From: a virus
DNA length: 23,441 bases
Direction: 5' to 3' (one strand)
IMG/VR virus record: IMGVR_UViG_3300018423_000067
Location: 1-23,441 of that record
Shown: positions 1,261 through 21,551 of the stretch, piece after piece
Layout of the letters: every line of letters begins with the position of its first letter
Numbering within the stretch: position 1 is the first letter of the stretch
The notes under the pieces: model-generated
The model's database searches: none
What the model saw: the letters and a program-made list of their open reading frames with translations, nothing else
What the model was told of the DNA's origin: nothing
Translations under genes and position numbers: made by a program

Positions 1261-3537
1261 ATGCCGACAGCAGTCCTAAGAACACTAGCAGTCCGATTAC
1301 GGATGAACTCGGCCGCTTTTCGAAAAGACATTGATAACGTAGATCGACGCTTTCGAAAGATGAGCAACAGCATGCGCCGATCTGCTAATCAGTTTCAAAA
1401 CCAACTGGGCCAGATCGGTGTGACCCTGGCGAGCGGATTTGGCATGGCAGCAGTCGTCAACGCTGCTGATGAGATGACCAACCTTCGCAACAAGATGAGA
1501 GCGACCTTCGAGAGCAGTAACGAAGTCGCCATCGGTATGAACCAAATCAGAGCTATTGCTAAGGCATCACGTTCGGACATCGCAGCGGTGGGAACGCTCT
1601 ATCAGCGTATCGCAGTGTCGACCAAGCACCTGGGCACAACGCAAGAAGAAGTCGCACAGGTCACTGAGGTAATTACCAACTCATTCCTAATGTCTGGAAC
1701 AACTGCGTCTGAGGCAGCGAACTCAGCGCGACAGTTTGCCCAGGGTTTGGCGTCTGGCGCGTTGCGTGGTGACGAATTCCGTTCTGTGTCTGAGAACAAC
1801 GTCGTATTGACCAACATGCTCGCAGACGGTTTGAACATGACGGTTGGTGAGCTCAGGAAGTTCAGCCACGAAGGCGGTTTAACGGCCGAGCGGATCTTGC
1901 CAATCTTGCAGAAAGAATTACAAAACACTCGCGATGCGGTGTCCGGCATGGACGTGACCCTCAGCCAGGCGCGGGTGTTATTCAATAACTCGTTCACTGA
2001 AATGATAGACCGCGTAAACACCACGTTTGGCGTTACTAATCGTCTAGCTATTGTGATGAAGACGCTGGCTGAAAACGTGCATATCGTCACGCTGGCCGCT
2101 GGAGCCCTAGCGACGATTCTTCTCACGAACGTTGTTAGAGGATTTGTTGCTTGGGTCGCTATGTCTACTGTAGCGACGGCAGCGGGTATCTTTGGGTTCG
2201 GCACGATGCTTTTTTCGCTTACAAAGATACTAGGGACGATGTTTGTCAAAGCGATAGGGCTTGCGGTTGCAGGCGTTGCACGCTTCGCGGCGGCGCTGAT
2301 CATGAACCCCATCGGCCTGACCATCACTGCGGTGCTTGGTTTGGGCGCGGCTTTAGTCTATTTGCAAGAACGGTTTGCCATCTTTGAGAACGCAGGCATT
2401 GCGTTTGAGAAGTTCAAAGACATCGCCAGCGCAGCTTTCGATTTCATGAAGTCAGGTTTTGAAAAAGCCATTCTTAACAGCGAAATCTTTTTCTCGAGCA
2501 TTAGAGAAAAGATAGCGAATGTATTGCGTGACATGGGGGCAGACACCCTAGCCGATGTCATCGCGCCGGATGAAAGCGTAGCGAAGCTGAAGGGCAAGCT
2601 AGGCACGATTAATGCCGACATTGACGATGCCAGCGACCGAATGAAGAAAGCACTAGCTAAACCTTTCAACTTCATTAGCGGTGAGGACGGTGTCTCGCCC
2701 ATCGACGCAATCAAAGACAAGGTCGCGGAGATGATGACGGCCCTTGGAATCGGCGACGGAGCAGAGGGTCTCAGTATGAGCTCTATGTTCGACAGCGTCG
2801 TTCAGTCGTTTGACAGCATGAGCGAAAGCGTCATGGCGAAGATGGCTGAAATGTTCCCAGGCTTGGTTAAGTTCTGGAAAGTACTAAAAGGTGCAAGCCC
2901 AGACGAAGTCGACGCACCAACCGTCGAAGAAGACAAACCAATGACCTGGGCCGAGCGTTGGTCAGCAGCCCTGGGCAAGTTCGGTGAGGCATGGGAAAGC
3001 CTCCGCATAGCAGCCGCTGGGAACATCGATAAGTTAAAAGAGAAGTACAAGACTCTCGATGATGTATTGAAGGCAGGCGCTGAAAAGTCCAAGAAGCTTG
3101 CAGCGATACGCCGGGCTATCTTGATTCGCGAGGCGATCATGATGGGCAAGTCTGCCATCTTGAAAGCCTGGAACAGCGCACCGTTCCCTGCCAACTTACC
3201 TGGCGTCTTACTGACGACTGCTCAAACGGGCTTGATCATTCGAGACATCATGAAGGGTCAGGCGCACGATGGCATGGACAGCCTCCCATCGACAGGAACA
3301 TACATGCTCGAGAAAGGTGAGCGCGTACTGTCAACTCGAGCGAACCGAGATCTGACTGAGTTCCTAGCGCACAACAACAACGCCAACCAAATGCGTGGCC
3401 CGGAAAACGTGACACTACAGGTCAACGGTGTTTCTGACCCTGACCTCGTCGTCAACGCATTGGCGTCACGCCGTGCTGAGCTCGAGGCAATGATTCGCAG
3501 CATCTCAGCCGAGAACGTCAGAGTCGCACCTTTTTAG
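1261..3537 (+). CDS. Tail tape measure protein
   Basis: This 758-residue protein sets tail length and probably helps DNA entry. The N-terminal third (about residues 1-240: SAAFRKDI, ADEMTNLRNKMRATF, SARQFAQGLASGALRGDEFRSV) matches the conserved N-terminal domain of tape measure proteins. About residues 270-370 are strongly hydrophobic with several possible membrane segments, and the rest is helical. At the usual ~0.15 nm per residue the tail would be about 110 nm. A good site (AGAGGA) precedes the ATG. The stop TAG lies inside the ribosome binding site of the next gene. Confidence 0.92.
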   Translation: MPTAVLRTLAVRLRMNSAAFRKDIDNVDRRFRKMSNSMRRSANQFQNQLGQIGVTLASGFGMAAVVNAADEMTNLRNKMRATFESSNEVAIGMNQIRAIAKASRSDIAAVGTLYQRIAVSTKHLGTTQEEVAQVTEVITNSFLMSGTTASEAANSARQFAQGLASGALRGDEFRSVSENNVVLTNMLADGLNMTVGELRKFSHEGGLTAERILPILQKELQNTRDAVSGMDVTLSQARVLFNNSFTEMIDRVNTTFGVTNRLAIVMKTLAENVHIVTLAAGALATILLTNVVRGFVAWVAMSTVATAAGIFGFGTMLFSLTKILGTMFVKAIGLAVAGVARFAAALIMNPIGLTITAVLGLGAALVYLQERFAIFENAGIAFEKFKDIASAAFDFMKSGFEKAILNSEIFFSSIREKIANVLRDMGADTLADVIAPDESVAKLKGKLGTINADIDDASDRMKKALAKPFNFISGEDGVSPIDAIKDKVAEMMTALGIGDGAEGLSMSSMFDSVVQSFDSMSESVMAKMAEMFPGLVKFWKVLKGASPDEVDAPTVEEDKPMTWAERWSAALGKFGEAWESLRIAAAGNIDKLKEKYKTLDDVLKAGAEKSKKLAAIRRAILIREAIMMGKSAILKAWNSAPFPANLPGVLLTTAQTGLIIRDIMKGQAHDGMDSLPSTGTYMLEKGERVLSTRANRDLTEFLAHNNNANQMRGPENVTLQVNGVSDPDLVVNALASRRAELEAMIRSISAENVRVAPF

Positions 3538-4116: not shown

Positions 4117-7100
4117 ATGGCATTCGGATTTATTGCAGCACTAATCGCGATTGCGACTTCCGCAGGCGTCTACTACCAGCAGAAAAAGATGGAAGCGCAG
4201 GCTCGAAAGCAGGCGAACGAGGCGAAGGCTGTTCAACTGAGCGGCCACGACAGCAACCGTGGTCTCTACACGGTATATGGGAAGACACTAGTCGGATCGA
4301 CTGTAGTCTGGAAGAAGGTCAGCGACAAGCAAGCACGTATCACACAGACCGGGTTCACGACTTTCTCCGCAGCAACGGGTTCCGATTTAACGACCAACAA
4401 AGATTGGGATCACAATCGCTGGCTCTATCGAGCGGTGACACTCTGTAACGGCCCCGTCGAAAGTGTAACTAACGTAACCGTCGACGATGAATCCTATGAA
4501 TCTCCCAGATTCACGAACGGCGCTGACTTTCACTTCGCTACCTCAGTTAGCTTAGGCCCAACTGCCGGACAGAACTTCTCCGCGCTTCGAAACGCTTACG
4601 CGAGCGACTTTGCGACCTGGGATAGCAACGCTGTAGGTAAGGGTGTGGCCTACGCGATGGAACGGATGTACCTGTCTAAAAACTACACCGCCTTCCAGGG
4701 TGAGCCACAAACTCGATACCTAGTCAAAGGGCGAAAGGTTTACGATCCCCGAAAAGACAGCACCTCGAGCGCCTACGACTCGAGTCTTGGCGTTTCATCG
4801 CATCGCGCAGACACGGACAGCACATGGCAGTGGAGTGACAACCCGGTCATCTGTTTGCTTGACTACCTGCGAAACGAAGAATACGGGCGTGGCTTGCCGT
4901 TATCGGTTATTGATATCGCGAGCATAGCGGCCGCAGCAGATAAGTGTGACGTCTTAGTCGACGTCCCAGCAGTACTGACCAATGACACCGGATCAAATGT
5001 CACGCAGTACGATCCAGCAACCGGCATCACATACATTACGACGCCTCTTGGAACTTTTCCGTACTACCGTCCTGATCAGGAAACCACAGGCACTAATGCC
5101 AACAAGCAAAAGCGATTCAGACTTAACATCGCTGTCGATCCTGCAAAAGAGATCCTCGAAAATATCCAAGAAATACTTAATGTCTTTCGAGGCAACCTAA
5201 GCTACGCCAATGGCAAGTACATCGTTCACATGGCTGATGTCCAGAACCCGGTACTCACACTCGGTGATGACGACATTATTGGTGGACTCAAGATAGCGAA
5301 CGGTGACCGCTCTCAGCGCATGAACCGCGCGACGGTCAAGTTCATCAACGAAAACAAACAACATAAAACAGACCAGATTAGTTGGCCGAGTATTGACAGC
5401 AATCGAGACGGCGACCTTTACGCGACCTATTTGTCGCAAGACGAAGATGAAAAACTACATCGGACCTTCACAGTTAAAGGGTGCACAGATTTCTATCAGG
5501 CACAGGACACAGCAGAGTTTTTGGTTAGAGACAGCCGGTCAAACCTGACAGTCACTGGGACGTTCGGAAGTCGTTGTTTTGGGTTAGTGCCTGGAGACGT
5601 CATCTCGCTCACCTATGACAGCGCTGGATTCAGCGGCAAATACTTCCGCGTCCTGCAAGCCAACATCGACCTCGTATCGATGAACGTGCAACTCCAACTG
5701 AAGGAGTATGACAGTAGCGTATACACCTGGAACTCTACTCGAGCGAACGAACCGCTCGGTCTGTCGTGGCAAGAAGAGGTCGTCAACGCAGCACCTACCA
5801 GCCCCACCATTGGAACAATCACAACAAACACACGCACGCAGGGCGATGATTCAGCCAGGACGACACTGACAATTGCTTTTTCGGGCGTTCCCGAGGATGC
5901 CCAGTACGCTGAAATTAGTTGGGCGATCAACGGCACTAACGACTACAACACTCAATTGATTTTCGACACGGCAAACCAAACGTCAGTTGAGGTAGGAATT
6001 GATCGAGATGGTCAGACCTATGAGATAAGACTGCGCTACTTTGCAGCTAACGATTTTGGCACCTTGATGCCATCTGCCTACGCAACAACAACTCACGCAG
6101 TGGCCTCTCTTACTGGAACTAAGTTAGACGGTATTGCAACGGGCGCTACTGCCAATACGGGCGCTCTGGCTGATCTCGATTCTGTCGATACAGCACAGAT
6201 AGAAGACAACGCCGTCAACATAGACAAGCTGGCTGACGCTATCCAATCGACTAACTACAGCGCGCAGGCTGGATCTGAGGCCGGTTGGAGGCTGACAACC
6301 GACGGAACATTCACAGCCCAGGATGGTAATTTCCGAGGCGGCGTAACAGCTACCTCGGGTACGTTCGCGGGGTCCGTCAACGTAAACGCCAACGGCAAGA
6401 TGTACGGCGGCTCGATGACCTCGTTCAATAATGGCACTGGATTCTTTCTCGGTTATCACACAGACGCCTACAAGTTTTCGGTTGGAGATAGCAACAGCAA
6501 GGTGCTGACGTGGGATGGCGACAATCTAAACGTGCAAGCAAACGTTGTCAGCTTCACAACTGGCGGCGAGCCTGACTACGACTCGAACTCTCGCTTCCCA
6601 ACGAGCATGAGGAGCTCGGTGCTCGATCTCGGCAGCAATACAGCCTACGTTTTCTTCGACAACAAGTTCGATCAGAACCTGACGCTGTTCGTTTCTTACT
6701 ATGCAGGTCCACTAACGTCTGGGTCTATCTCTGGTGAAACGAACGCTAAGAATGCAGTCATGTCGCAGTTGAGCATGCAGGTTCAGTATGCGCCTAACAA
6801 CAGCGGCTCTCCTGGTACTTGGACGAATTTTGGCGGTGCGTTGCTTTCTCAGAAGAAGTACACGTCCGGGCAGTTGATCAGTAACTACTACGTCAAAACG
6901 ACTGACCTGGGAGGCGGCAACTTCCGCGCAGACCTAGCGACGAAATCACAAGCAGCCGCTGATTTCACCGGGCTTGGGTATTCGGAGACTGCCTACGGAA
7001 TTACGGACGAAGAGTACTACATGACCGAGCGTGTCACTCAGTACGCATTCCCTAAAGGTGAGTACTTTTTTCGAGTCGTGGTGACTGTAACAGATGGCTC

Positions 7101-10100
7101 ATACACACCGTACCCAGCAAGCGGCTCTCCCAGCGTTAGCAACAACCGCAGACTTTCTATCCCTAACGCGCTGACCTACACCGACTCAGACCACGGTCAA
7201 TCGGCAGTTTCAGTTGGTAATGACTTTACCTATTTCACCTCTACCAATGACAATCAGACCCTTATCGATGGCGGTAGCATCAGTATTACGCCCCCAGAAT
7301 CAGACAGTACTAGTAATAAATATGGCGGTATTTTTATAGGTGGCCGAGGCGCTAATGCTAGTTACTTTCAACCATTGGGCGGTATTTGGTTCTATGAAGA
7401 TATGGACGACATGGGGCAAGGGGCTGGCAGTGACGGTTCACCAGATTACGCCATATACATGCCGACAGAAGGCGGCAACCTAGTAATAAGTGGGAACGTC
7501 AACTTCAACCATGATGTAGACGTAGACGGTACACTCTCAATCAACGGTGTCACGGTAAACGCTGGAGCGGTTACAGGCCCAGCAGGATCTGATGGTCAGA
7601 TTCAATACAACAATGGTGGCGCATTAGGCGGTAGTTCTAATTTAACCTTTGATGACAGCACCAACACGCTATCCGTTACTAATTTAACCGTGTCGGGTAC
7701 GACTACGACCATCGACACTACGAACCTTAACGTGAGTGACAAGAACATCACTCTGAACTACGGAACGGGTGACACCTCAGCTAACGCAGATGGTGCGGGG
7801 ATAACCATTCAAGACGCTGTAGACGCTTCAACGGATGCGACGATTCTATGGGATGCGACTAATGACGAGTTTGATTTTAGTCATGGCGCAACCTTTGCTG
7901 GCCGCTTTGAGGCTGGGGATATAGCGCAGTTTAAGCGTGATGTGCGCGTCAACGGGATAATAAGAGCAACGGGCTGGTATAGCGACGCGGCAGATACCGA
8001 CTACACTGGTCTAGGCGTTGAGATGGGGGTAAGTGGGTCACAGCCCTACATCATTGCGTATGACCGCGATAACACTTCATACAGCGACCTTTACTTTAAC
8101 GCTACGGACTACTTTTTCCAGTCACAGCCAACATCAGCGGCGAATGCGAAGATCGCTACATTCCAGAGCAACAACTCGTCATCGGCCTACATACAGGTAG
8201 AGTCAGTAAATACAGGCGCAAATTATGCCTACTTAGAACTTAAAACAGCCTCAACCGTTTCTGGGTCTCCTATTGATCGTGGTTACTTAATTAAGAATAG
8301 AGAGGATGGAACAGGGAACAGTGTGGCGGCTGGGTCGCTCTACCTGTACAACGAAACAGGTCCGATTGATCTCATACCAAACTCAACGCAGGCGTACCGA
8401 ACAACAGTAGGCACAGATGGACAGTTAGTCGTTCGTTCGTCGAATGATGCGCCGATTACCGCAGAGTCTACAGACGCTTTCTCAGGTATACAATTCGTTG
8501 ACGCGGATGGGAACGATTATCTCTTCTACAACGGAAGCACAAATCACTATTACACTAATTCAGGGAAAATGAGCATTGCTGGCTCGTCAATCGCAACCGG
8601 CTACGAGTTTCAAGTCAATGGCGATGCAAACATCACAGGTCGCATTGAAGCAAACGCCATAACTACAGACGATGACTACCAAGTCCGTCTAGCTTCAACA
8701 GCCGCAGGTTACTTCAACAGCCTACCGAAAGATCAAGAAACGGGGTACATGAATTTTGGGGCTGGCGCGTTTGGTCTTTTGTTCAGAAATGGATACGACT
8801 CATATATCACAAACAATGCTTACTACTACCGCACGAACAATGTCAGTAATTGGTATGGAAAGTTCAGCAGTCGCAACGCTGGCTTGATTGAGATGTATGA
8901 CGGGAAATTTGTTTTCCGTAATACCAATGGTACAGACGTAACGTCAGGACAGTCGTTCTCATTCACCACTCAGATGGAGATAAGCGAGACCGGCAACGTC
9001 ACCATCCAAGGCGACCTCACGTCCAATGGCGATGTTACTGGGGATTCTTTCCACACGGAGAATGGCTGGATTGACTCCACGGTCAAAAACTCCATTCAAG
9101 TGATTGGCGATAACAAATCGCCATTCATGTTCCGTAACAGCTCATACAACAATGTTTTCTCTTCACTGCCTTGGTCAGGCGGGAACATATATTTAACCTT
9201 TGGCGGTTATCACAATGGAAGCGAATGGATAGAGCGATCAAATGCTTCAACTCCGTATTTGAGCCTATTACACGCCAACGCGGGTGGAATGAACTGGTAC
9301 TACACCACCGCGTTCAACGCAAACAGAGAGGTAACAAGTTGGAACATAGCGAGCAGTGTGTCTCTTTGGAATGAATATGGCGCGTGGGATGGCGATATCA
9401 ATACGTCTTCAGATATTGACGTTGGCGGCATGGTCTCTACCGGCAGAGTGTCTGCTTCAGAATTTGATCTGCCTTCTGGAGGAATGATTGACTGGGCGAA
9501 TGGTGATGCTCGGATTATTGAGGGCCAAACAGAAAACTTCTCGCTTTCATTCCAAACTTATAATGGATCGGCACTTAGCACAGCACTTCGGTTAGATGGC
9601 GATAACACGGCGCACTTCTTTGGGCCAGCGCACATAATCGGAAACGGTTCATACGTTGGAAACTACGGCTATAGCACCTTAATACTAGAAGACACCGCCG
9701 GCTACCCCGGCCTCAACTTTAGAGAAGGAAACTATAACTGGTTACAGCGTAAAAACGGTCAAGACCACGATATGGAGTTTGTGTATTCGTCCAATGCTTC
9801 AGCGCAGGGAACCGGCAACTACTATCCTAAGTTTACGATCCATAGTGGCGGCGGCGTAAATATTCACGGCGGCGATATTGATACAAACGGCGGCGATGTG
9901 GATGCCGGTAGCGGCATATTCAACTCTGATTCGGGCGTCTCAGTTTTTGCTGGAGCCAAGGTAAACGCTGGCGGTATGTACGTTCACGGGGGCGGCACTT
10001 ATTCTGACCCCGGCTCCCAAATGTTTCTCCATACAGACAGTAGCGGCTATGGTCGGCTTGCTGTTTATGATATGCGCTTTTTAGTGGGCGAAAACAGCGC

Positions 10101-12471
10101 CCGAACGATCCAAGCTCTGCGGTTAGAGTCAGATGGCGAAGCGTTTTTCTACGGCAACATCCACACGGGCCAAGCTCAGTTATTCCATAACACCGACAAC
10201 GTTTGGCGCGGCCTCACCATACAAAACAACGGCGACACTAACCAATGCACCGTTGACGGCAAAAGCAGTGACGGCACACAGCAGTTTGTCGTTTACGGCG
10301 GCTCTCAGTCGCAAGGCTTCCTGCACCCAACCGCATACACATGGCGTTTTAAAGTCCCTCTTACCGGAAGTCTACAGCGTGATAATGCTTATGACATATT
10401 TGATGCAGGGAACTACCCTACTGGCCTAAGTTTTACGGGCGACACCACAGGATCAGCCACGATAAGCGGTTCAACGGGAACCAAAGCAATAGGATTGACA
10501 ACCCGCAGTTTGACGAGTGTAGGTCAATACGTTTGGAAAGCCGGTGATAACCCTAGTCAAACAAGCGGAACGATCGGGTACGCATGGCATACCGGAATAA
10601 CAACGTCGTTTGTTCGAAGCGCTGATGGATACCCAAGCTATGGCTCAGTCATCCGCGTAAAGAACTACCCTAACGATGGGGGCGCTGGCGAGCTTTACTT
10701 CCCATATAACGCGACGTATGGCGGAAACCACTTACGATTCCGTCTTGGTCTTTATAACAACGCAGGAATGACTTCCTTCCGCGATGTCATTGACTCCAGT
10801 AATTATCATCAAATTAAGCAAGGCGACTTCAGCGCAGATGCCTTCAAGTGGCAGGGTAACTCAGCGTACTACTTTGATCCGAATCCGGCGGTTACTACGG
10901 GCTTGCGTATTGCTGACAGCGACATTGATATGCGCGGAGTCACTGACTCAGACACTGATACAGGTCAAATAATTTTAGGAGCATACAACGGCCCTAGTGC
11001 TGAAAATGGAACGACGCAGGGTCCGGCTATCGTTTGGAAACCGAATTATTCAGGTTATACCAAAGAAAGCCTAAAGATTGCTGGTATTGCTAAAGCCAGC
11101 TTCTTTGACATGGATATGGTGTTCTACACCAACGGCAATTCAAATACTGGCGGAGGGAATACTGAGCGATTTCGTCTTACGCAAGAAGGAACAGCATACT
11201 TCTCTGCGCCGCACGTTGGCATAAACACTACAGTGCTTGGTAATACCGCATGGGGCAGTACCAGTAACACCGGACAGCTTACTCTTTACGGTAGCAATTA
11301 CGGCGTAATCAATTTGAAGGGCGCGGCTGGAACGTCTACACACTACTCAATGGGCGGAGGTAATGATCGCTTTTACATGGCCTACAGGCAAGGCGGTTAC
11401 CACTCGATAACGGTTTACCAACAGACCGTTGGTCTAGGATCGAACAACACTACGCCAAACACCAGTTACAGTGTCGATATCGCTGGTGACACGCTGATCG
11501 ACGATGGGCAGCTGGTTGTTACATCGTCAGCAACAGCGGATACCATGATTGAGCTGGGTACTTCAACCCAAACCCTATATACAAATCAGGTTTGGTTCAG
11601 CAACTCAGGAGATGGGGAGATTTGGAAGTCTGGTACGGCACATACAAGTTGGGGCGGCTCTTCATCTTTTAACATTTACAACAGCAACGGTAACATCAAT
11701 TTCCATCCGGTTGGAACTGCTAATCAGTTCATAATTAGAAGCTCTTATTGTCAAGTTGATCAGGGCTTGCGAGCTAAAGCGACGGCTGGCGGAAACTACG
11801 GTCCTATGTTTTCAGCTAATGGCAAATACGCTCAAGCCTCAGTCGGCCACACCGCGACGAATAACGAAGGGATTTTTTGGCACCTTGGTGGTAATTCTTA
11901 CGCGATCTATCACACAGCAGGCACTTGGACTGGTAATACGTATCAGCAGTTAAGAATTGACTGGCCGACTGGAATCATCTTAGGAACAGAAAATGACGGC
12001 ACATATGCCAAAAGTTACATTGATGTAAATTCAGCAATCTATGCTGATGAAGCGATACACGCTCCTATCTACTATGACCAAAGTGGAACGTCGTACTACC
12101 TTGATTTAGCCAACACTGGAGACTCACTAAGAGTCGCTGGGAATGTCGTTGCGTACTACTCTGATGAAAGGCTCAAGGACATTGAAGGTCCAATTCAGAA
12201 TGCTCTGGAGTCTGTCAACACGCTTGAAGGTTTTTACTACACCCCTAACGAAAAAGCTCAACGCTTAGGCTACAAGAAAAAACGCGAGGTCGGGTTATCG
12301 GCTCAGAGTGTTCAAGCAATACTTCCCGAAGTTGTGACAGAAGCTCCCGTAGATCCCGAATATCTCACCGTGGATTATGCGCGGCTAGTTCCTCTCTTGG
12401 TGGAATCCATTAAGGAATTAACTCAACAAGTGAAACAGCTACAAAAGAAAATAGAGGATAACGAAAAATGA
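4117..12471 (+). CDS. Giant tail-tip host-specificity protein fused to a tail fibre, with C-terminal S74 chaperone
   Basis: 2784 residues, more than twice lambda J (1132). Residues 1-25 include a hydrophobic N-terminus. About residues 60-545 form the J-like hub: RAVTLCNGPVESV, NPVICLLDYLRNEEYGRGLP, ENIQEILNVFRGNL. A fibronectin-like stretch follows (about 555-660), then LDGIATGATANTG near residue 670. The long fibre includes GPAGSDGQIQYNNGGALGG at about 1154 and a TTNLNVSDKNITLNYG module near 1200, both common in aquatic phage fibres. The C-terminus (2682-2784) is a peptidase_S74 intramolecular chaperone with Ser2682-Asp and Lys2687, then VGLSAQSVQAILPEVV and a coiled coil. Thus hub and receptor-binding fibre are one polypeptide, trimmed after trimerisation. 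CTCGAG sites stop at 5743, near residue 542, suggesting a mosaic joint. Confidence 0.93.
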   Translation: MAFGFIAALIAIATSAGVYYQQKKMEAQARKQANEAKAVQLSGHDSNRGLYTVYGKTLVGSTVVWKKVSDKQARITQTGFTTFSAATGSDLTTNKDWDHNRWLYRAVTLCNGPVESVTNVTVDDESYESPRFTNGADFHFATSVSLGPTAGQNFSALRNAYASDFATWDSNAVGKGVAYAMERMYLSKNYTAFQGEPQTRYLVKGRKVYDPRKDSTSSAYDSSLGVSSHRADTDSTWQWSDNPVICLLDYLRNEEYGRGLPLSVIDIASIAAAADKCDVLVDVPAVLTNDTGSNVTQYDPATGITYITTPLGTFPYYRPDQETTGTNANKQKRFRLNIAVDPAKEILENIQEILNVFRGNLSYANGKYIVHMADVQNPVLTLGDDDIIGGLKIANGDRSQRMNRATVKFINENKQHKTDQISWPSIDSNRDGDLYATYLSQDEDEKLHRTFTVKGCTDFYQAQDTAEFLVRDSRSNLTVTGTFGSRCFGLVPGDVISLTYDSAGFSGKYFRVLQANIDLVSMNVQLQLKEYDSSVYTWNSTRANEPLGLSWQEEVVNAAPTSPTIGTITTNTRTQGDDSARTTLTIAFSGVPEDAQYAEISWAINGTNDYNTQLIFDTANQTSVEVGIDRDGQTYEIRLRYFAANDFGTLMPSAYATTTHAVASLTGTKLDGIATGATANTGALADLDSVDTAQIEDNAVNIDKLADAIQSTNYSAQAGSEAGWRLTTDGTFTAQDGNFRGGVTATSGTFAGSVNVNANGKMYGGSMTSFNNGTGFFLGYHTDAYKFSVGDSNSKVLTWDGDNLNVQANVVSFTTGGEPDYDSNSRFPTSMRSSVLDLGSNTAYVFFDNKFDQNLTLFVSYYAGPLTSGSISGETNAKNAVMSQLSMQVQYAPNNSGSPGTWTNFGGALLSQKKYTSGQLISNYYVKTTDLGGGNFRADLATKSQAAADFTGLGYSETAYGITDEEYYMTERVTQYAFPKGEYFFRVVVTVTDGSYTPYPASGSPSVSNNRRLSIPNALTYTDSDHGQSAVSVGNDFTYFTSTNDNQTLIDGGSISITPPESDSTSNKYGGIFIGGRGANASYFQPLGGIWFYEDMDDMGQGAGSDGSPDYAIYMPTEGGNLVISGNVNFNHDVDVDGTLSINGVTVNAGAVTGPAGSDGQIQYNNGGALGGSSNLTFDDSTNTLSVTNLTVSGTTTTIDTTNLNVSDKNITLNYGTGDTSANADGAGITIQDAVDASTDATILWDATNDEFDFSHGATFAGRFEAGDIAQFKRDVRVNGIIRATGWYSDAADTDYTGLGVEMGVSGSQPYIIAYDRDNTSYSDLYFNATDYFFQSQPTSAANAKIATFQSNNSSSAYIQVESVNTGANYAYLELKTASTVSGSPIDRGYLIKNREDGTGNSVAAGSLYLYNETGPIDLIPNSTQAYRTTVGTDGQLVVRSSNDAPITAESTDAFSGIQFVDADGNDYLFYNGSTNHYYTNSGKMSIAGSSIATGYEFQVNGDANITGRIEANAITTDDDYQVRLASTAAGYFNSLPKDQETGYMNFGAGAFGLLFRNGYDSYITNNAYYYRTNNVSNWYGKFSSRNAGLIEMYDGKFVFRNTNGTDVTSGQSFSFTTQMEISETGNVTIQGDLTSNGDVTGDSFHTENGWIDSTVKNSIQVIGDNKSPFMFRNSSYNNVFSSLPWSGGNIYLTFGGYHNGSEWIERSNASTPYLSLLHANAGGMNWYYTTAFNANREVTSWNIASSVSLWNEYGAWDGDINTSSDIDVGGMVSTGRVSASEFDLPSGGMIDWANGDARIIEGQTENFSLSFQTYNGSALSTALRLDGDNTAHFFGPAHIIGNGSYVGNYGYSTLILEDTAGYPGLNFREGNYNWLQRKNGQDHDMEFVYSSNASAQGTGNYYPKFTIHSGGGVNIHGGDIDTNGGDVDAGSGIFNSDSGVSVFAGAKVNAGGMYVHGGGTYSDPGSQMFLHTDSSGYGRLAVYDMRFLVGENSARTIQALRLESDGEAFFYGNIHTGQAQLFHNTDNVWRGLTIQNNGDTNQCTVDGKSSDGTQQFVVYGGSQSQGFLHPTAYTWRFKVPLTGSLQRDNAYDIFDAGNYPTGLSFTGDTTGSATISGSTGTKAIGLTTRSLTSVGQYVWKAGDNPSQTSGTIGYAWHTGITTSFVRSADGYPSYGSVIRVKNYPNDGGAGELYFPYNATYGGNHLRFRLGLYNNAGMTSFRDVIDSSNYHQIKQGDFSADAFKWQGNSAYYFDPNPAVTTGLRIADSDIDMRGVTDSDTDTGQIILGAYNGPSAENGTTQGPAIVWKPNYSGYTKESLKIAGIAKASFFDMDMVFYTNGNSNTGGGNTERFRLTQEGTAYFSAPHVGINTTVLGNTAWGSTSNTGQLTLYGSNYGVINLKGAAGTSTHYSMGGGNDRFYMAYRQGGYHSITVYQQTVGLGSNNTTPNTSYSVDIAGDTLIDDGQLVVTSSATADTMIELGTSTQTLYTNQVWFSNSGDGEIWKSGTAHTSWGGSSSFNIYNSNGNINFHPVGTANQFIIRSSYCQVDQGLRAKATAGGNYGPMFSANGKYAQASVGHTATNNEGIFWHLGGNSYAIYHTAGTWTGNTYQQLRIDWPTGIILGTENDGTYAKSYIDVNSAIYADEAIHAPIYYDQSGTSYYLDLANTGDSLRVAGNVVAYYSDERLKDIEGPIQNALESVNTLEGFYYTPNEKAQRLGYKKKREVGLSAQSVQAILPEVVTEAPVDPEYLTVDYARLVPLLVESIKELTQQVKQLQKKIEDNEK
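12160..12468 (+). other. Peptidase_S74 self-cleaving chaperone domain of the fibre
   Basis: The domain begins at Ser2682 in SDERLKD, with Lys2687 five residues later. This matches the Ser-Lys dyad of endosialidase-type chaperones, where cleavage occurs just before the serine. A predicted 103-residue C-terminal piece is released after it has helped trimerise the fibre. The following YLTVDYARLVPLLVESIKEL and a glutamine/lysine-rich helix are the usual end of this family. Confidence 0.9.
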
Positions 12472-16843: not shown

Positions 16844-17044
16844 ATGAGCAGCTTAAGTCATTACGCGAGAATGCTGCGAAATCATGATTGGACATACCGA
16901 TATAGCGACGACTATAACGAGTTCGCAAAAGGGGCGCGGCAGCGTGAGCGCATCCATATCATGCACGATTTTTTAATAAAGAAGGGTGGTGACAAGGCCC
17001 GTCTAGCTGATGCTTTGTGGCAGAAATACAATCGGGCAGTGTAA
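16844..17044 (+). CDS. Small hypothetical protein
   Basis: 66 residues, basic and aromatic (YARMLRNHDWTYRYSDDYNEF at the N-terminus, LADALWQKYNRAV at the end). It is preceded by a good AGGAG site and a possible -10 box. It lies just before the HTH-like gene at 17049 with a four-base gap. No family recognised. Its size, charge and place at the edge of the lysogeny block would suit a regulator or excisionase, but no motif proves this. Confidence 0.6.
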   Translation: MSSLSHYARMLRNHDWTYRYSDDYNEFAKGARQRERIHIMHDFLIKKGGDKARLADALWQKYNRAV

Positions 17045-17048
17045 AAAT

Positions 17049-17282
17049 ATGGAAGCTAAAGAAGCTTTAAGCCTGCTCGAGTCAAAGGTGGGTGGACCAG
17101 TAGAATGTTCTAGGTTGTTGCTCGTGGATTACACGGGTTCGTATGCTGCCTGGAAGGCGGGTCGCAAGCCCATCCCTCGCTATATTCATGCGTCAATCGC
17201 AGCACATTTGGGGGTGTTGGAGCGGGAAACGAGGTTCGAACTCGCGACCTCCACCTTGGCAAGGTGGCGCTCTACCAGCTGA
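17049..17282 (+). CDS. Small HTH-like protein whose end reads through the tRNA gene in antisense
   Basis: 77 residues from the ATG at 17049; an earlier in-frame ATG (17010) lies within the previous gene and is less likely. Residues about 1-55 ([47 protein letters not shown]) look like a small helix-turn-helix DNA-binding protein of the Cro/YdaS kind. Residues about 57-77 ([16 protein letters not shown]) are simply the antisense translation of the tRNA-Gly, which also supplies the stop codon. The original C-terminus was therefore probably replaced when the tRNA was captured. The ribosome binding site is weak. Confidence 0.55.
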
Positions 17283-17293
17283 GCTATTCCCGC
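17218..17293 (-). tRNA. tRNA-Gly (anticodon GCC), complete with encoded CCA
   Basis: All four arms fold: acceptor GCGGGAA/TTCCCGC, D stem GCTC/GAGC, anticodon stem CCACC/GGTGG with loop TTGCCAA, T stem GCGAG/CTCGT (one G-U) with TTCGAAC. Discriminator T at 17221 and CCA at 17218-17220 are encoded. Nothing is truncated. It lies 158 bases downstream of the integrase on the same strand, with no promoter or terminator seen between, so it may be read from the repressor-integrase unit. It resembles gammaproteobacterial tRNA-Gly(GCC) and could translate GGC/GGU codons. Confidence 0.96.
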
Positions 17294-17330
17294 AGTGTCT
17301 CACTGTAGTTGGCTACATGTGAGGTAAAAG

Positions 17331-17417
17331 TGTGTACCCCTTGTGTACCGTACAAAAATCCGTTTCCGAATTTCCAAACCCCTTGCTACAGCTAGGTTTC
17401 CGGGCCATTTGTGTACT
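17331..17417 (+). repeat. TGTGTAC direct repeats, candidate integrase arm-type sites
   Basis: TGTGTACC occurs at 17331-17338 and 17342-17349, exactly 11 bp apart, and TGTGTACT at 17410-17417, four bases before the core palindrome. Same-orientation short repeats on one side of a core site are the usual form of integrase arm-binding sites. The stretch 17294-17451 has no gene. Confidence 0.5.
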
Positions 17418-17420
17418 TGC

Positions 17421-17435
17421 AACCTTGGCAAGGTT
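17421..17435. other. Probable attP core: second copy of the tRNA-Gly anticodon arm
   Basis: AACCTTGGCAAGGTT is a 15-bp palindrome with one central base. Its inner 13 bases (17422-17434) are identical to the anticodon arm of the adjacent tRNA (17253-17265), in the same orientation. The 7-base centre TTGGCAA equals the anticodon loop, the classic crossover segment of tyrosine integrases that target tRNAs, and the flanking stems would be the core binding sites. It lies 16 bases from the integrase stop. Confidence 0.55.
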
Positions 17436-17447
17436 GTATATACAACC
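17432..17447. repeat. 16-bp perfect palindrome next to the core
   Basis: GGTTGTATATACAACC is perfectly self-complementary and shares four bases with the core palindrome. It starts five bases after the integrase stop (minus strand). There is no T tract on either side, so it is not an evident terminator. A binding site for integrase, an accessory factor or excisionase is possible. Confidence 0.7.
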
Positions 17448-17451
17448 CTTC

Positions 17452-18519
17452 CTATACTGTAACGCTATAGTTGACTTCAAAGAATTTTCGCTCATGTCCG
17501 ACCAGGTATAACTCCGTCGTTGACTCGTCGGTATGAGCCATTATTTCGCTGATTGCTTCTTTTGGGGCTCCTTCCTTCTCGAGCGTGCTCGCTGCCAAAG
17601 ACCTAATCTCGTGGAACGTTGGATGATCTCTACCGTCGTAGATTTCGCGTATGCATTCCGTGAACTGCTTACTTAGGAGATCAGGCGTTACCTGACATTC
17701 GTGCTCTTTGGTTTTGCCTGTTTTGTTAGTCCCAAAGTGGGACAAAACGAAGGGGCAATCCCGGTTCATCATTGCGATGCGTCGACACTCTTTTATCTCG
17801 GCCAGGAGTTGTGGGTGTTTATCGAAATCCCACTTCAGCCTAGTAGCAGCAACCTCACCTCGACTGGCGATGCTTTTCGTCACCACAACATGCAGCGCGT
17901 TATCGTGAATGTCGTCCCACCTCATTCTCACAAGATCACCACGTCGCAGTGTAGTAAGAAGCGATAGTCGGCATGCTTGTATCAATGCTTCATACCGTTT
18001 TTCGTGAGCGACTCTTAGCACGCCGTCGAGCAAGCCTGGTGTAAGGCGCTTACGTTTCTTTTCAGGTAGCGCCTTTTTGTCTAACAACTCAATAGGGTTT
18101 GCCGGTAACACGATCAACTGCGACAACATGCACCATTTGATAAATCGGTTGAGTTCAGGTCGAAGCGCATCTTGCTGGTGACGGGAGAGGCTGTCCCAAT
18201 AATCGAGGAAGTTAGCCATCTGGACTGATCGAGGCTTGCAGTCTTTTTCAAACTCTCGAGCGAAGCGTCTAATGGCGTACTTAACGTTCGTCCATTTATC
18301 TTTTCTAGTAAGTTCTGGTGAACCTGCTTCGCGTCGAGCGATGTGACGTTCGACTAGGTCTAGCCATTCGCCAGGCGGCGTCTCATACTGGACCAAAGCC
18401 GCTTTTCCGGCTTCGATGGCTTGCCTCTCTGATGCGGCTGTCAGCGTTTTATACTTACCGTTAGGTAGTTTGACGCGCCACTTATCTTTCCTGCCCTTGG
18501 GGTCTTTGTAGATCTTCAC
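17452..18519 (-). CDS. int: Tyrosine recombinase integrase
   Basis: 355 residues, normal for the family. The N-terminal part (about 1-60) is the arm-type binding region, and about 65-140 the core-binding helices. The catalytic domain carries Arg192 (LLTTLRRGDL), Lys215 (VVVTKS), His303 and Arg306 (HEIR), His329 (IMAHTDESTT) and the nucleophile Tyr338 (ELYLVGH). The start is a GTG overlapping the repressor stop (GTGA), without its own ribosome binding site, so it is translated by coupling. It catalyses site-specific integration, probably at tRNA-Gly given the neighbouring core. No recognisable excisionase is in the window. Confidence 0.97.
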   Translation of the reverse strand: MKIYKDPKGRKDKWRVKLPNGKYKTLTAASERQAIEAGKAALVQYETPPGEWLDLVERHIARREAGSPELTRKDKWTNVKYAIRRFAREFEKDCKPRSVQMANFLDYWDSLSRHQQDALRPELNRFIKWCMLSQLIVLPANPIELLDKKALPEKKRKRLTPGLLDGVLRVAHEKRYEALIQACRLSLLTTLRRGDLVRMRWDDIHDNALHVVVTKSIASRGEVAATRLKWDFDKHPQLLAEIKECRRIAMMNRDCPFVLSHFGTNKTGKTKEHECQVTPDLLSKQFTECIREIYDGRDHPTFHEIRSLAASTLEKEGAPKEAISEIMAHTDESTTELYLVGHERKFFEVNYSVTV

Positions 18520-18842
18520 AGCAAGTCACGCTTCGTGTTCTTGCCGTAGATCGCTTTGAAGTAATCATCTGTCTCGTAATAACGAACACATTCTTTCGCA
18601 AACGCTTGGGTATCGACACCCAAAACTCTAGCCCACAACTCTGTGTCGTCTGGCGGCACTCGAACCCGGCCATTTTCGATTTGGCTGATCATTGTGAAAT
18701 ATTTCTGACTAACCAGCTTCGCGAATTCGTGTTGTGTAAGCTGTGCTGACTCCCGCAAAGACTTAAGCACCTTTCCGAATTCTGCTCTTTTTTGTAGGTC
18801 TGCGCGTTGATTTTTAGGGCGTCCATTTTCTGCACCTCCCAT
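18516..18842 (-). CDS. XRE-family repressor/regulator
   Basis: 108 residues from the ATG at 18842, chosen because GCAGGAG lies seven bases upstream; an earlier ATG at 18881 has no such site. The helix-turn-helix spans about residues 23-76 (FGKVLKSLRESAQLTQHEFAKLV, SQIENGR, WARVLGVD). The C-terminal part (VRYYETDDYFKAIYG) lacks a LexA/CI-type self-cleavage domain, so induction would not be by RecA-driven autoproteolysis. Facing the polymerase promoter, it is the likely lysogeny repressor and is coupled to the integrase downstream. Confidence 0.85.
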   Translation of the reverse strand: MGGAENGRPKNQRADLQKRAEFGKVLKSLRESAQLTQHEFAKLVSQKYFTMISQIENGRVRVPPDDTELWARVLGVDTQAFAKECVRYYETDDYFKAIYGKNTKRDLL

Positions 18843-18860
18843 AGGAGTCTCTCCTGCTGT

Positions 18861-18967
18861 TATAAGGTTTATATAAGTCATGCTTATATCTTATATGCCG
18901 ATAGTACACCCGCTATGACACCTGTGTATACAGTTTGAGGGGGGATACAGTCACTTGCTATTATAAG
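18861..18967. promoter_or_regulatory. Candidate repressor operators: five TATAAG/CTTATA half-sites
   Basis: TATAAG starts at 18861, 18872 and 18962, and its complement CTTATA at 18883 and 18890. The second and third form a perfect inverted repeat ATATAAG-TCATG-CTTATAT (18871-18889). The first three start exactly 11 bp apart, one helical turn. The copy at 18962 overlaps the -10 box of the forward promoter, and the others lie in the repressor's own leader. This fits operators controlling both directions. Confidence 0.5.
18935..18964 (+). promoter_or_regulatory. Forward sigma70-type promoter for the RNA polymerase operon
   Basis: -35 TTGAGG (18935-18940), 18-base spacer, and extended -10 TGC-TATTAT (18956-18964). 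Transcription would start near 18971, leaving a leader of about 118 bases that is A-rich and apparently unstructured. The leader ends in a GAGGAGGGG ribosome binding site. The -10 overlaps a TATAAG half-site. This host-type promoter would be needed to make the phage polymerase first. Confidence 0.6.
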
Positions 18968-19088: not shown

Positions 19089-21551
19089 ATGGTCAACAAA
19101 ACAGACTTCGAACTCTTAGAGGTTCTGTGGGAACACCGAATGGTTACAGATGCCAAAGATCATTATCTAGAAAGCATCAATCGGAAACATCTAAACGAGA
19201 CAAAGCTGGGCGAGCAGTTGCTACAAGAGATAGCGCCCGTTGTACAAGAGCACATAGCGGTACGTCAGCGACAAGCTGAAGACAACATCATCAACAATAA
19301 AACTGGTAAACGACAGTTAGCTTGGAAGTACTTAATCACATTGGTCGGAAGCGAAGAGCTCGCGTTCGCTGCAACTCAGAATCTAATGTCGACCTTGGCG
19401 ACTTCCAAGCCTCCAACTTATCAACATGTCTGCCTCGAGCTCGGCGAAAGTTGTGTCAGGGAGATAAGATTCCAACGCTGGAGGGAAGGGGAGGCAAGTT
19501 ATTCGGGGCCATTTCTACGACGAAATTCCCAGGCTTTAGCGAGCAAAGCGCAGCACCTCAGATTCGCCAGAAAACTCGAAAAAAAGATAGAAGGCTACCT
19601 CGATGGGGATGAGTACGATCTCACTCGAGATGCGTTATTCGGCGTCGGCGCACTCATTCTCGACTGCATACGACGGGCTCACCCAGACATGCTCACGCTG
19701 ACGGCGACCGGCCCTCGAGGCAAAATACGCGCTCAAACCGTCTTTTATTCTGATGAATTTTTGGGGGATGTTTCGAAGCTTCACGCTATCGCGTCGATCT
19801 CGCAGCCAATACGTCGCCCCATGCTTGTACCGCCTCGAGCGTGGAAGCAGAACGAAAACGGCAGAATAGAAGGTGGTTATTATCTGTTGAATCAGAAGGT
19901 CTATAGAACTGATTGGCATCCACACAGATTCACACCATCGGCCCAGGCGCTCGACAGTCTAAACGCGATTCAAAAAACACCATGGCGCATCAACCGGGAC
20001 GTATACGAGTTTCTGTGTCGAAACCCGTTCATAGGACCGCAGATGCCAGTGCAAAAGCCAAAGAAGCTCGCGCCCGAGCAGTGGCAGACGTTGTCGGAAG
20101 AAGACAAGCGCGTCGTACAGCAGCAGTTCAATGACGACCTCGCTCAATACGTATCCCAAACCTCAAAGGCTATGACGTTCGAGCGTCAGTTACTGCAAGC
20201 AGAAATGCTCGAGGGTAAGTCAGCGTTTTGGCAACCTCATTCTTTTGACTTTAGGGGGCGTTTATATCCTGCTAACCAAATGCTGACGAGCCAGGGCGAT
20301 CACGTCGCTAAAGCATTAATAGAGTTTGCGAACGGGAAGCGCATAAACGCTGATGGCATCTATGCTCTGAAGCTACAGGTCGCCAACACGTTTGGGTTTG
20401 ACAAACTGAACATCGAGGACCGGCTTGAGAAAGTTGCAGAGATGAAAAGCGACATCATGGCGATGCTCGAGGACGACAAAAAAGCAATCGAGCTCATCAT
20501 GAAGGCAGACGAGCCAATGGCTTTCTACGCTGCTGCGGTAGATCTCGCAAAAGCTTGGAAGCATCCTGTTCACATCAGCCACTTACCCATAGCAGTAGAC
20601 GGGACATGCAACGGTTTGCAGATTCTGTCGCTTTTGGGAAAGGATCAGGTCGGCGCGGAGAAAACGAACTGCACCACGTCGACGAAGCGAAAAGATCTAT
20701 ATCTAGAGGTAGGCGTAGCAGTGCGCCAAATTATCGAAAAAATTATCATGAATTCGCAGGACGACCTCGAGCTTCAAGTCGCTCACAGTTGGTTCGACGT
20801 CATGCAGGACGACCGTCTCGCAAGGAAGGTAGTAAAGCGTGCGGTTATGACAACGGCGTATGGCGTCACCCCGGAAGGGATACGAGAGCAGCTAGTCGCA
20901 GACAGGATGTGCGACAACCTGGACATCCCTACTGGCTTGCAGAACTTGCCTATTTTGCAGGCACGGCATCGGCTCGCATCGTACATGCGGGACTGGATTA
21001 TGGAAGCCAGGACTGAGGTCGTAAGCGAGGCTGTTCGAATCATGGACTACCTACGTGACGCGGCTAAGGTGCTCGCTGAGAACGGCTACCCACTAACCTG
21101 GCAGACGCCAGACGGATGTGAGGTCAGCCAAAAGTACGTCGTACTTAAAGAGAAGCACGTTCGCACCTTCGATAATTGGATGAGACGCCTACGCAAACGA
21201 ACAGACAAGTTGAGCCCGTCAAAGAACGCAGGGGCTGCGGCCCCTAACGTCGTCCACAGCTTAGACGCTGCGATGTGTCGAATGGTCGCTACTAGGTTAG
21301 TCGAAGCAGGGATCGATGACATGGCGTTCGTTCACGACTCATACGCTGTACACGCCTGCTATCTCGAACAACTCAACAACATCATTAGAGAAGTTGCAGT
21401 CGACATATTCAAAGGCAACTGGTTGTCTGATGAACTGCATCAAGGCTTGCTCGAGATGATACCCAATGACCTCCGCTTGCCTGAGCCTCCAAAGCAGGGC
21501 AAGCTCGACGTTAAATCACACCTACCGAATGCTCGGTATTTTTTCAGCTAA
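19089..21551 (+). CDS. Single-subunit DNA-directed RNA polymerase, T7-like
   Basis: 820 residues (T7: 883). Landmarks in order: DFRGRLYP at 387-394; motif A with Asp504 (AVDGTCNGLQ, T7 Asp537); motif B with Arg579, Lys583 and Tyr591 (RKVVKRAVMTTAYG, T7 Arg627/Lys631/Tyr639); PNVVHSLDAAM; and motif C His749-Asp750 (FVHDSYAVH, T7 Asp812). All catalytic residues are present. The shorter length reflects a compact N-terminal domain, the region that in T7 contacts promoter and early RNA. It is first in the rightward early operon, presumably transcribes later phage genes, and is likely kept off by the repressor in lysogens. Confidence 0.97.
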   Translation: MVNKTDFELLEVLWEHRMVTDAKDHYLESINRKHLNETKLGEQLLQEIAPVVQEHIAVRQRQAEDNIINNKTGKRQLAWKYLITLVGSEELAFAATQNLMSTLATSKPPTYQHVCLELGESCVREIRFQRWREGEASYSGPFLRRNSQALASKAQHLRFARKLEKKIEGYLDGDEYDLTRDALFGVGALILDCIRRAHPDMLTLTATGPRGKIRAQTVFYSDEFLGDVSKLHAIASISQPIRRPMLVPPRAWKQNENGRIEGGYYLLNQKVYRTDWHPHRFTPSAQALDSLNAIQKTPWRINRDVYEFLCRNPFIGPQMPVQKPKKLAPEQWQTLSEEDKRVVQQQFNDDLAQYVSQTSKAMTFERQLLQAEMLEGKSAFWQPHSFDFRGRLYPANQMLTSQGDHVAKALIEFANGKRINADGIYALKLQVANTFGFDKLNIEDRLEKVAEMKSDIMAMLEDDKKAIELIMKADEPMAFYAAAVDLAKAWKHPVHISHLPIAVDGTCNGLQILSLLGKDQVGAEKTNCTTSTKRKDLYLEVGVAVRQIIEKIIMNSQDDLELQVAHSWFDVMQDDRLARKVVKRAVMTTAYGVTPEGIREQLVADRMCDNLDIPTGLQNLPILQARHRLASYMRDWIMEARTEVVSEAVRIMDYLRDAAKVLAENGYPLTWQTPDGCEVSQKYVVLKEKHVRTFDNWMRRLRKRTDKLSPSKNAGAAAPNVVHSLDAAMCRMVATRLVEAGIDDMAFVHDSYAVHACYLEQLNNIIREVAVDIFKGNWLSDELHQGLLEMIPNDLRLPEPPKQGKLDVKSHLPNARYFFS

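Follow-up and report, generated by a model that had tools for sequence, protein, structure and literature searches.

Organization of the probable lysogeny module

The stretch of DNA analysed here (the window) comprises the 23,441 nt of IMG/VR virus record IMGVR_UViG_3300018423_000067 and, as judged by its gene content, comes from a tailed phage encoding a tape measure protein, a lysozyme, a T7-type RNA polymerase and a tyrosine integrase. On the - strand, a repressor-like HTH regulator (18516-18881; PF13560/PF01381) heads a series that continues with the tyrosine integrase (int) of 355 aa (17452-18519; PF00589 and phrog_1), a 13-bp copy of a tRNA anticodon arm (17422-17434), a spacer of 128 bp presumed to carry the P' arm of an attachment site (17294-17421), and a complete tRNA-Gly(GCC) gene with an encoded CCA (17218-17293), which is the sole tRNA found in the window by ARAGORN.

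Sixteen IMG/VR contigs are related to the window, with integrases 63-100% identical, and a further scan added one contig with the same layout. In these relatives, too, the HTH regulator, integrase, core, arm repeats and tRNA-Gly follow one another on one strand; the regulator keeps its place, and the tRNA-Gly(GCC) gene is present in every one except L014/L028, a contig that stops right past the core. The module is constant across the window and its relatives even as the surrounding sequence diverges (integrase identity 63-74%); its gene order, with the RNA polymerase and lysis-side genes on the opposite strand, recurs in all sufficiently long contigs. The integrase residues read as catalytic (R193, K215, H303, R306, H329 and Y338) are all invariant among relatives. 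A frameshift or an assembly error interrupts the integrase frame of one relative (L016/L030; IMGVR_UViG_3300046167_000574) after about 80 codons, with the core and tRNA intact.

Outside the module, the T7-type single-subunit RNA polymerase (phrog_414; 19089-21551) is found beside a long tape measure protein (1261-3537), an unusual pairing, and the nearest isolated phages in an RNA polymerase search were only 26-29% identical, Stappia phage SI01 being top-ranked. A single ORF of 2784 aa occupies 4117-12471 on the + strand; its N-terminal part is similar to pelagiphage tail proteins and its C-terminus has the appearance of a putative intramolecular-chaperone end. A search through the RNA polymerase for relatives carrying another tRNA isotype returned only the known contig family and one sequence (L233, 24%) without the module.

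A conserved anticodon-arm core and its arm-type sites

The direct repeat ACCTTGGCAAGGT occurs at 17253-17265, within the anticodon arm of the tRNA, and again at 17422-17434, 169 bp away; on the - strand the second copy reads ACCTTGCCAAGGT, the anticodon arm of tRNA-Gly(GCC). An earlier note on this DNA had remarked on this second copy between the integrase and the complete tRNA, and the comparison bears it out, the exact 13-mer being found in 16/16 IMG/VR relatives as well as in the contig added by the second scan. Of 20,000 Markov shuffles, 9 gave a 13-mer common to the tRNA and its 307-nt flank, and a chance origin is excluded because the 13-mer is conserved in relatives. The core is a palindrome but for its central base, which alone sets its direction, and this base is a C on the - strand in every contig, so that the core copy has the tRNA sense orientation that the same note had assigned to it.

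Identity between the core and the phage's own tRNA covers 13-15 bp across the family and 13 in the window, as against 18 bp between the window core and the commonest gammaproteobacterial tRNA-Gly. This extended block (+ strand coordinates 17420-17437, annotated on the - strand; ACAACCTTGCCAAGGTTG) is identical to the common gammaproteobacterial tRNA-Gly(GCC), and the window core fits its own tRNA less well because the outer stem pairs of the phage tRNA are CC/GG rather than CA/TG. The best core matches in other family members are 15 or 16 bp, and 14 in one. It had been proposed that the identity falls short of the tRNA 3' end, and this holds throughout: against the phage's own tRNA and all compared chromosomal tRNA-Gly genes the block stops at 13-18 bp, within or just past the anticodon stem, and attP contains no 3' half. 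The hallmark of tRNA-rebuilding prophages, attP identity that starts at the crossover and reaches the tRNA 3' end, is thus absent, and the core is short enough, by the criterion of about 8-17 bp for tRNA-dependent lysogeny, that neither junction rebuilds the tRNA.

Three GTACACA repeats follow the core on the - strand, 6 nt (17410-17416), 74 nt (17342-17348) and 85 nt (17331-17337) past it, the latter two, with their 11-bp spacing, being of arm type. Repeats of GTACAC lie at these same distances on the tRNA sense strand in every relative, the third site being variant in one, and GTACACA occurs five times in the 23.4 kb window, three of these within the attP region. The distance from repeats to tRNA varies, the tRNA-Gly gene sitting on the same strand 125-143 bp behind the core in the relatives that reach it (128 bp in the window). 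Because the repeats hold their distance to the core and not to the tRNA, core and repeats form one fixed unit from which the tRNA is separate, and because the arm repeats stand at fixed distances of 6, 74 and 85 nt the core region is read, from the sequence comparison, as attP, resembling a lambda-type attP with a core and P' arm sites.

This geometry bears on where the crossover would fall. The same 13 bases are present in the phage's own tRNA (17253-17265), and some chromosomal genes are letter-identical to phage tRNAs, so that identity could there span the whole gene and recombination would leave a full tRNA at both prophage ends. Such a crossover is extremely unlikely, however, given that the arm repeats are fixed relative to the 17422 core rather than to the tRNA, that the window tRNA is two stem pairs off the common host arm, with which the 17422 core agrees over 18 bp, and that the second core would be left unexplained. 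The attP is accordingly placed at 17422-17434, outside the complete tRNA, in agreement with the earlier note.

The phage tRNA-Gly

Five distinct versions of the phage tRNA-Gly are found in the family, in which 100% of stem positions are paired and four pairs are altered on both sides; because all stem positions pair, with four pairs doubly changed over the five versions, the phage tRNAs are judged to be under selection as tRNAs. Two of the five versions are letter-identical to chromosomal genes of marine Gammaproteobacteria, one being of a Porticoccaceae/SAR92 type and the other of a type found in SAR86, Legionellales and other MAGs. The tRNA-Gly of one relative (L020, 6298-6373) joins the anticodon stem found in one group (GTACC) to the T-arm found in another (CGAG), and this mosaic is absent from the chromosomal tRNA-Gly genes compared. 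In the window, an ORF on the + strand (17010-17282) enters the tRNA-Gly gene from the opposite strand and ends within it, its C-terminus being tRNA antisense; an overlap with the 3' end of a gene on the other strand is also published for the tRNA of phage Fionnbharth (PMC10865867).

Phages carry tRNAs to supplement translation or to replace tRNAs cut by host defence. The tRNA-Gly could be an ordinary phage tRNA of this kind, and the 13-bp repeat could be unrelated to integration, but the window has no other tRNA, this one keeps its position next to int throughout the relatives, the 13-mer never varies and has arm repeats at set distances from it, and related integrases cross over in anticodon arms (see below), which together make this explanation very unlikely.

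Probable hosts and target gene

The identity of two phage tRNA versions with chromosomal genes indicates that the hosts are probably marine Gammaproteobacteria. Host tRNA-Gly genes with the anticodon stem CAACC/GGTTG, expected in the earlier note, are widespread: the tRNA-Gly(GCC) arm pattern that includes this stem matches 244/340 sampled gammaproteobacterial genomes, and among the matches listed all tRNA-Gly(GCC) genes are of the CAACC/GGTTG type. By our tally, a single match is present in about 219 of these 244 genomes, a count that other tRNA-Gly variants could escape, and tRNA-Gly(GCC) is not a single-copy gene in every host. Many Gammaproteobacteria have tRNA-Gly(GCC) as the first gene of a Gly-Cys-Leu cluster; in Porticoccaceae it comes after tRNA-Glu. 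Integration into a Gly-Cys-Leu cluster would sever tRNA-Cys and tRNA-Leu from the host promoter and place them downstream of int on the same strand.

Conserved peptide patterns of the integrase had no match in 84,980 species genomes, and an attL/attP pattern for a lysogen or host junction recovered only known contigs in IMG/VR. A pattern combining the core with a gapped tRNA gave 65 matches in IMG/VR with no new attP or attL among them, the new matches being complete tRNA-Gly genes upstream of another tRNA-like start. An integrase profile was run against about 1,150 gammaproteobacterial genomes: 20 from hosts whose tRNAs resemble those of the phages, 112 from the SAR92 H231 family, 391 from the order and 369 from the class to which that family belongs, and others from further families. 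It yielded no lysogen, only a distant group that rebuilds its tRNA. The search of bacterial genomes proposed earlier for prophages with this integrase hence returned none carrying the window's own enzyme, but it did uncover this distant group, about 34% identical, crossing over in anticodon arms.

Distant prophages that rebuild their target tRNA

Integrases of the distant group (~34% identical) were found by the profile search in 10/391 genomes of the order that contains the SAR92 H231 family (Pseudomonadales), and those examined further adjoin an intact tRNA-Ala(GGC), tRNA-Pro(GGG) or tRNA-Val(GAC). In the neighbourhoods fetched for three prophages (L109, L110 and L116), the distal part of the tRNA is duplicated about 31-38 kb away, as direct repeats that begin at tRNA positions 27-32 and extend towards the 3' end. 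Because the repeats start at these positions, the group appears from its sequences to cross over in the anticodon arm, normally rebuilding the tRNA. Downstream of the tRNA, on its sense strand, two of the three prophages have three tandem GCACAA sites, which are spaced by 11 and 13 bp and start about 70-95 nt beyond the anticodon arm. The three prophages thus resemble the window family in their anticodon-arm crossover, in the ~34% identity of the integrase and, in two cases, in similarly sided and spaced arm repeats, and differ from it in that their attP holds the tRNA 3' half and rebuilds the gene, without a replacement tRNA. On this comparison, the window attP looks like the layout of the distant prophages minus the tRNA 3' half, plus a whole tRNA behind the arms.

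The distant prophages also bear on the direction of integration. The core of the window is nearly palindromic, with direction set by one base, and the related integrase genes have the reverse orientation with respect to their tRNA; these features would suit an integration in the opposite orientation, with the phage tRNA facing away from the host promoter. This orientation is nonetheless very unlikely: every contig has the sense C at the central position, and two of the distant prophages also have their arm sites on that side of the core, along the sense strand of the tRNA. Judged by the central core base and the side of the arm sites, the phage tRNA follows the core in the sense direction of the tRNA, on the side that would be joined to the host 5' half. 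The direction postulated earlier for read-through is right on this evidence and also on that of Mycobacterium phage Gaia, whose junctions are proven and whose layout is the same (PMC10865867).

Proposed integration and expression of the phage tRNA

The region is very probably a lysogeny module by which a temperate marine phage carries out tRNA-dependent lysogeny, its tRNA coming to lie in line with the host promoter, a reading that draws on the anatomy of the sequence, its conservation, the geometry of the arm sites, the relatives that rebuild their tRNA and the parallel with Gaia. We infer both the integration event and the essentiality of the host tRNA. The integrase would recombine the core at 17422-17434 with the anticodon arm of a host tRNA-Gly(GCC) gene, and because attP carries the arm but no 3' half, the host gene would be cut into two useless halves. 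One junction would consist of the host promoter, the tRNA 5' half, the core, the P' arm of about 128 bp and the intact phage tRNA-Gly, all co-directional, with the predicted sequence tRNA-Gly 5' half + ACCTTGCCAAGGT + WGCARGTACACA; the other would consist of int, the core and an orphan 3' half, with the predicted sequence GGTTGTR...ACCTTGCCAAGGT + tRNA-Gly 3' half. With host promoter, 5' half, core, arm and phage tRNA collinear, the phage tRNA, a candidate replacement for the split host tRNA, would therefore fill the place of the broken gene. In the free phage, the tRNA is the end of the regulator-int strand; integration would detach it from that transcript and bring it downstream of the host promoter.

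That the host promoter drives the phage tRNA after integration is somewhat favoured. According to the predicted fold of the read-through RNA, the 3' acceptor strand of the phage tRNA is also paired by the host 5' acceptor strand, a competition that could hinder processing. A possible, if less probable, alternative keeps tRNA-dependent lysogeny but has the phage tRNA expressed from its own upstream promoter, or from the repressor-integrase transcript of the free phage, the alignment with the host promoter being incidental. The motif TACAGT (17302-17307, - strand), a candidate -10 element of such a promoter or else a protein site, is conserved in all relatives 5-14 nt before the tRNA, the tRNA is the final gene of the HTH-int strand, and a phage tRNA with its own proven promoter is known from Fionnbharth (PMC10865867). 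However, TACAGT is accompanied by no conserved -35 element, the best TTGACA matches being 1 to 5 of 6, and a sigma-70 scan found nothing upstream of the tRNA; integration would part the tRNA from the int transcript; and the in-line position is one on which Gaia and the window family have converged, which speaks against an incidental alignment.

Comparison with known systems

Replacement rather than repair of the broken tRNA, put forward in the earlier note, agrees with the arm core serving as attP, the lack of rebuilding and the intact cognate tRNA, but the idea had already been published. In tRNA-dependent lysogeny, as described by Guerrero-Bustamante and Hatfull in 2024, a short core leaves the host tRNA unrepaired and a phage tRNA of the same isotype is needed for lysogeny; its prevalence beyond actinobacteriophages was posed as a question by these authors (PMC10865867). 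The window family is apparently a case of this described strategy in a new virus family, arisen independently in gammaproteobacterial phages. It would add a conserved case in at least 17 uncultured marine phage contigs, aimed at gammaproteobacterial tRNA-Gly.

In the Fionnbharth (K4) and Cluster L phages, the core is 9-17 bp long and lies in an essential single-copy tRNA gene. The short core and same-isotype phage tRNA, theirs being required for lysogeny, are shared with the window, whereas their tRNA is located away from attP, that of Fionnbharth overlapping gene 37 on the other strand with its own promoter proven (PMC10865867). A proteobacterial precedent comes from S. meliloti prophages like Mesorhizobium phage Lo5R7ANS, in which the host tRNA-Leu(UAG) is split centrally and a prophage tRNA-Leu(UAG) substitutes for it (PMC11476347). 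According to its phage record, Lo5R7ANS resembles the window in being proteobacterial, in its T7-type RNA polymerase and in the order regulator, int and, further on, tRNA, but it is an alphaproteobacterial podovirus with restriction-modification genes between int and tRNA and a different isotype. No self-repeat of at least 11 bp that would place attP was found in Lo5R7ANS. Just downstream of the phage tRNA-Leu (L119, 8569-8700) lies GGAACAGATTTAGGTTCC, which resembles the tRNA-Leu(UAG) anticodon arm; if this were the attP core, the tRNA would lie on the other side of the core than in the window family.

On our reading of the sequences, Gaia is the closest match in layout to the window family. 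Gaia, together with Nebkiss, shares with the window a tyrosine integrase, a short core in the anticodon region (8 bp in Gaia), a host tRNA that is not rebuilt and a cognate phage tRNA (PMC10865867). It differs in its tRNA-Leu-CAA, its mycobacterial host, its unrelated phage type and its junctions, which were sequenced by Guerrero-Bustamante and Hatfull (PMC10865867), whereas the window has tRNA-Gly-GCC, gammaproteobacterial targets and a T7-type RNA polymerase. In Gaia, int is followed on the same strand by tRNA-Leu-CAA at 39120, and comparison with Courthouse places the core AAAAAATTCAAAA at 38994-39006, in sense orientation and 113 bp before the tRNA; AAAAAATTCAAAA contains an 8-bp stretch fitting the published core length (PMC10865867), and the Gaia relatives Courthouse and WXIN, which rebuild the tRNA, have its 3' half at the corresponding place. 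This core position and the in-line placement of the tRNA represent the present interpretation of the sequences, and no discussion of promoter capture was found in the parts of PMC10865867 consulted.

The Gaia-like in-line placement makes promoter capture plausible in the window family, and the two cases together point to a shared geometry in which the promoter of the broken gene passes to the substitute tRNA. If so, this would explain why one tRNA is kept exactly there, would tie lysogeny to an essential host gene and would provide a search signature, namely a short anticodon-arm repeat with a same-isotype tRNA about 110-145 bp behind. Whether in-line tRNA replacement is a distinct and recurrent design is, in our assessment, evenly balanced; Gaia and the gammaproteobacterial phage family would have come to it separately, the 3' half being dropped, a complete tRNA being set behind the P' arm, and integration transferring that tRNA from the lysogeny transcript of the phage to the host promoter.
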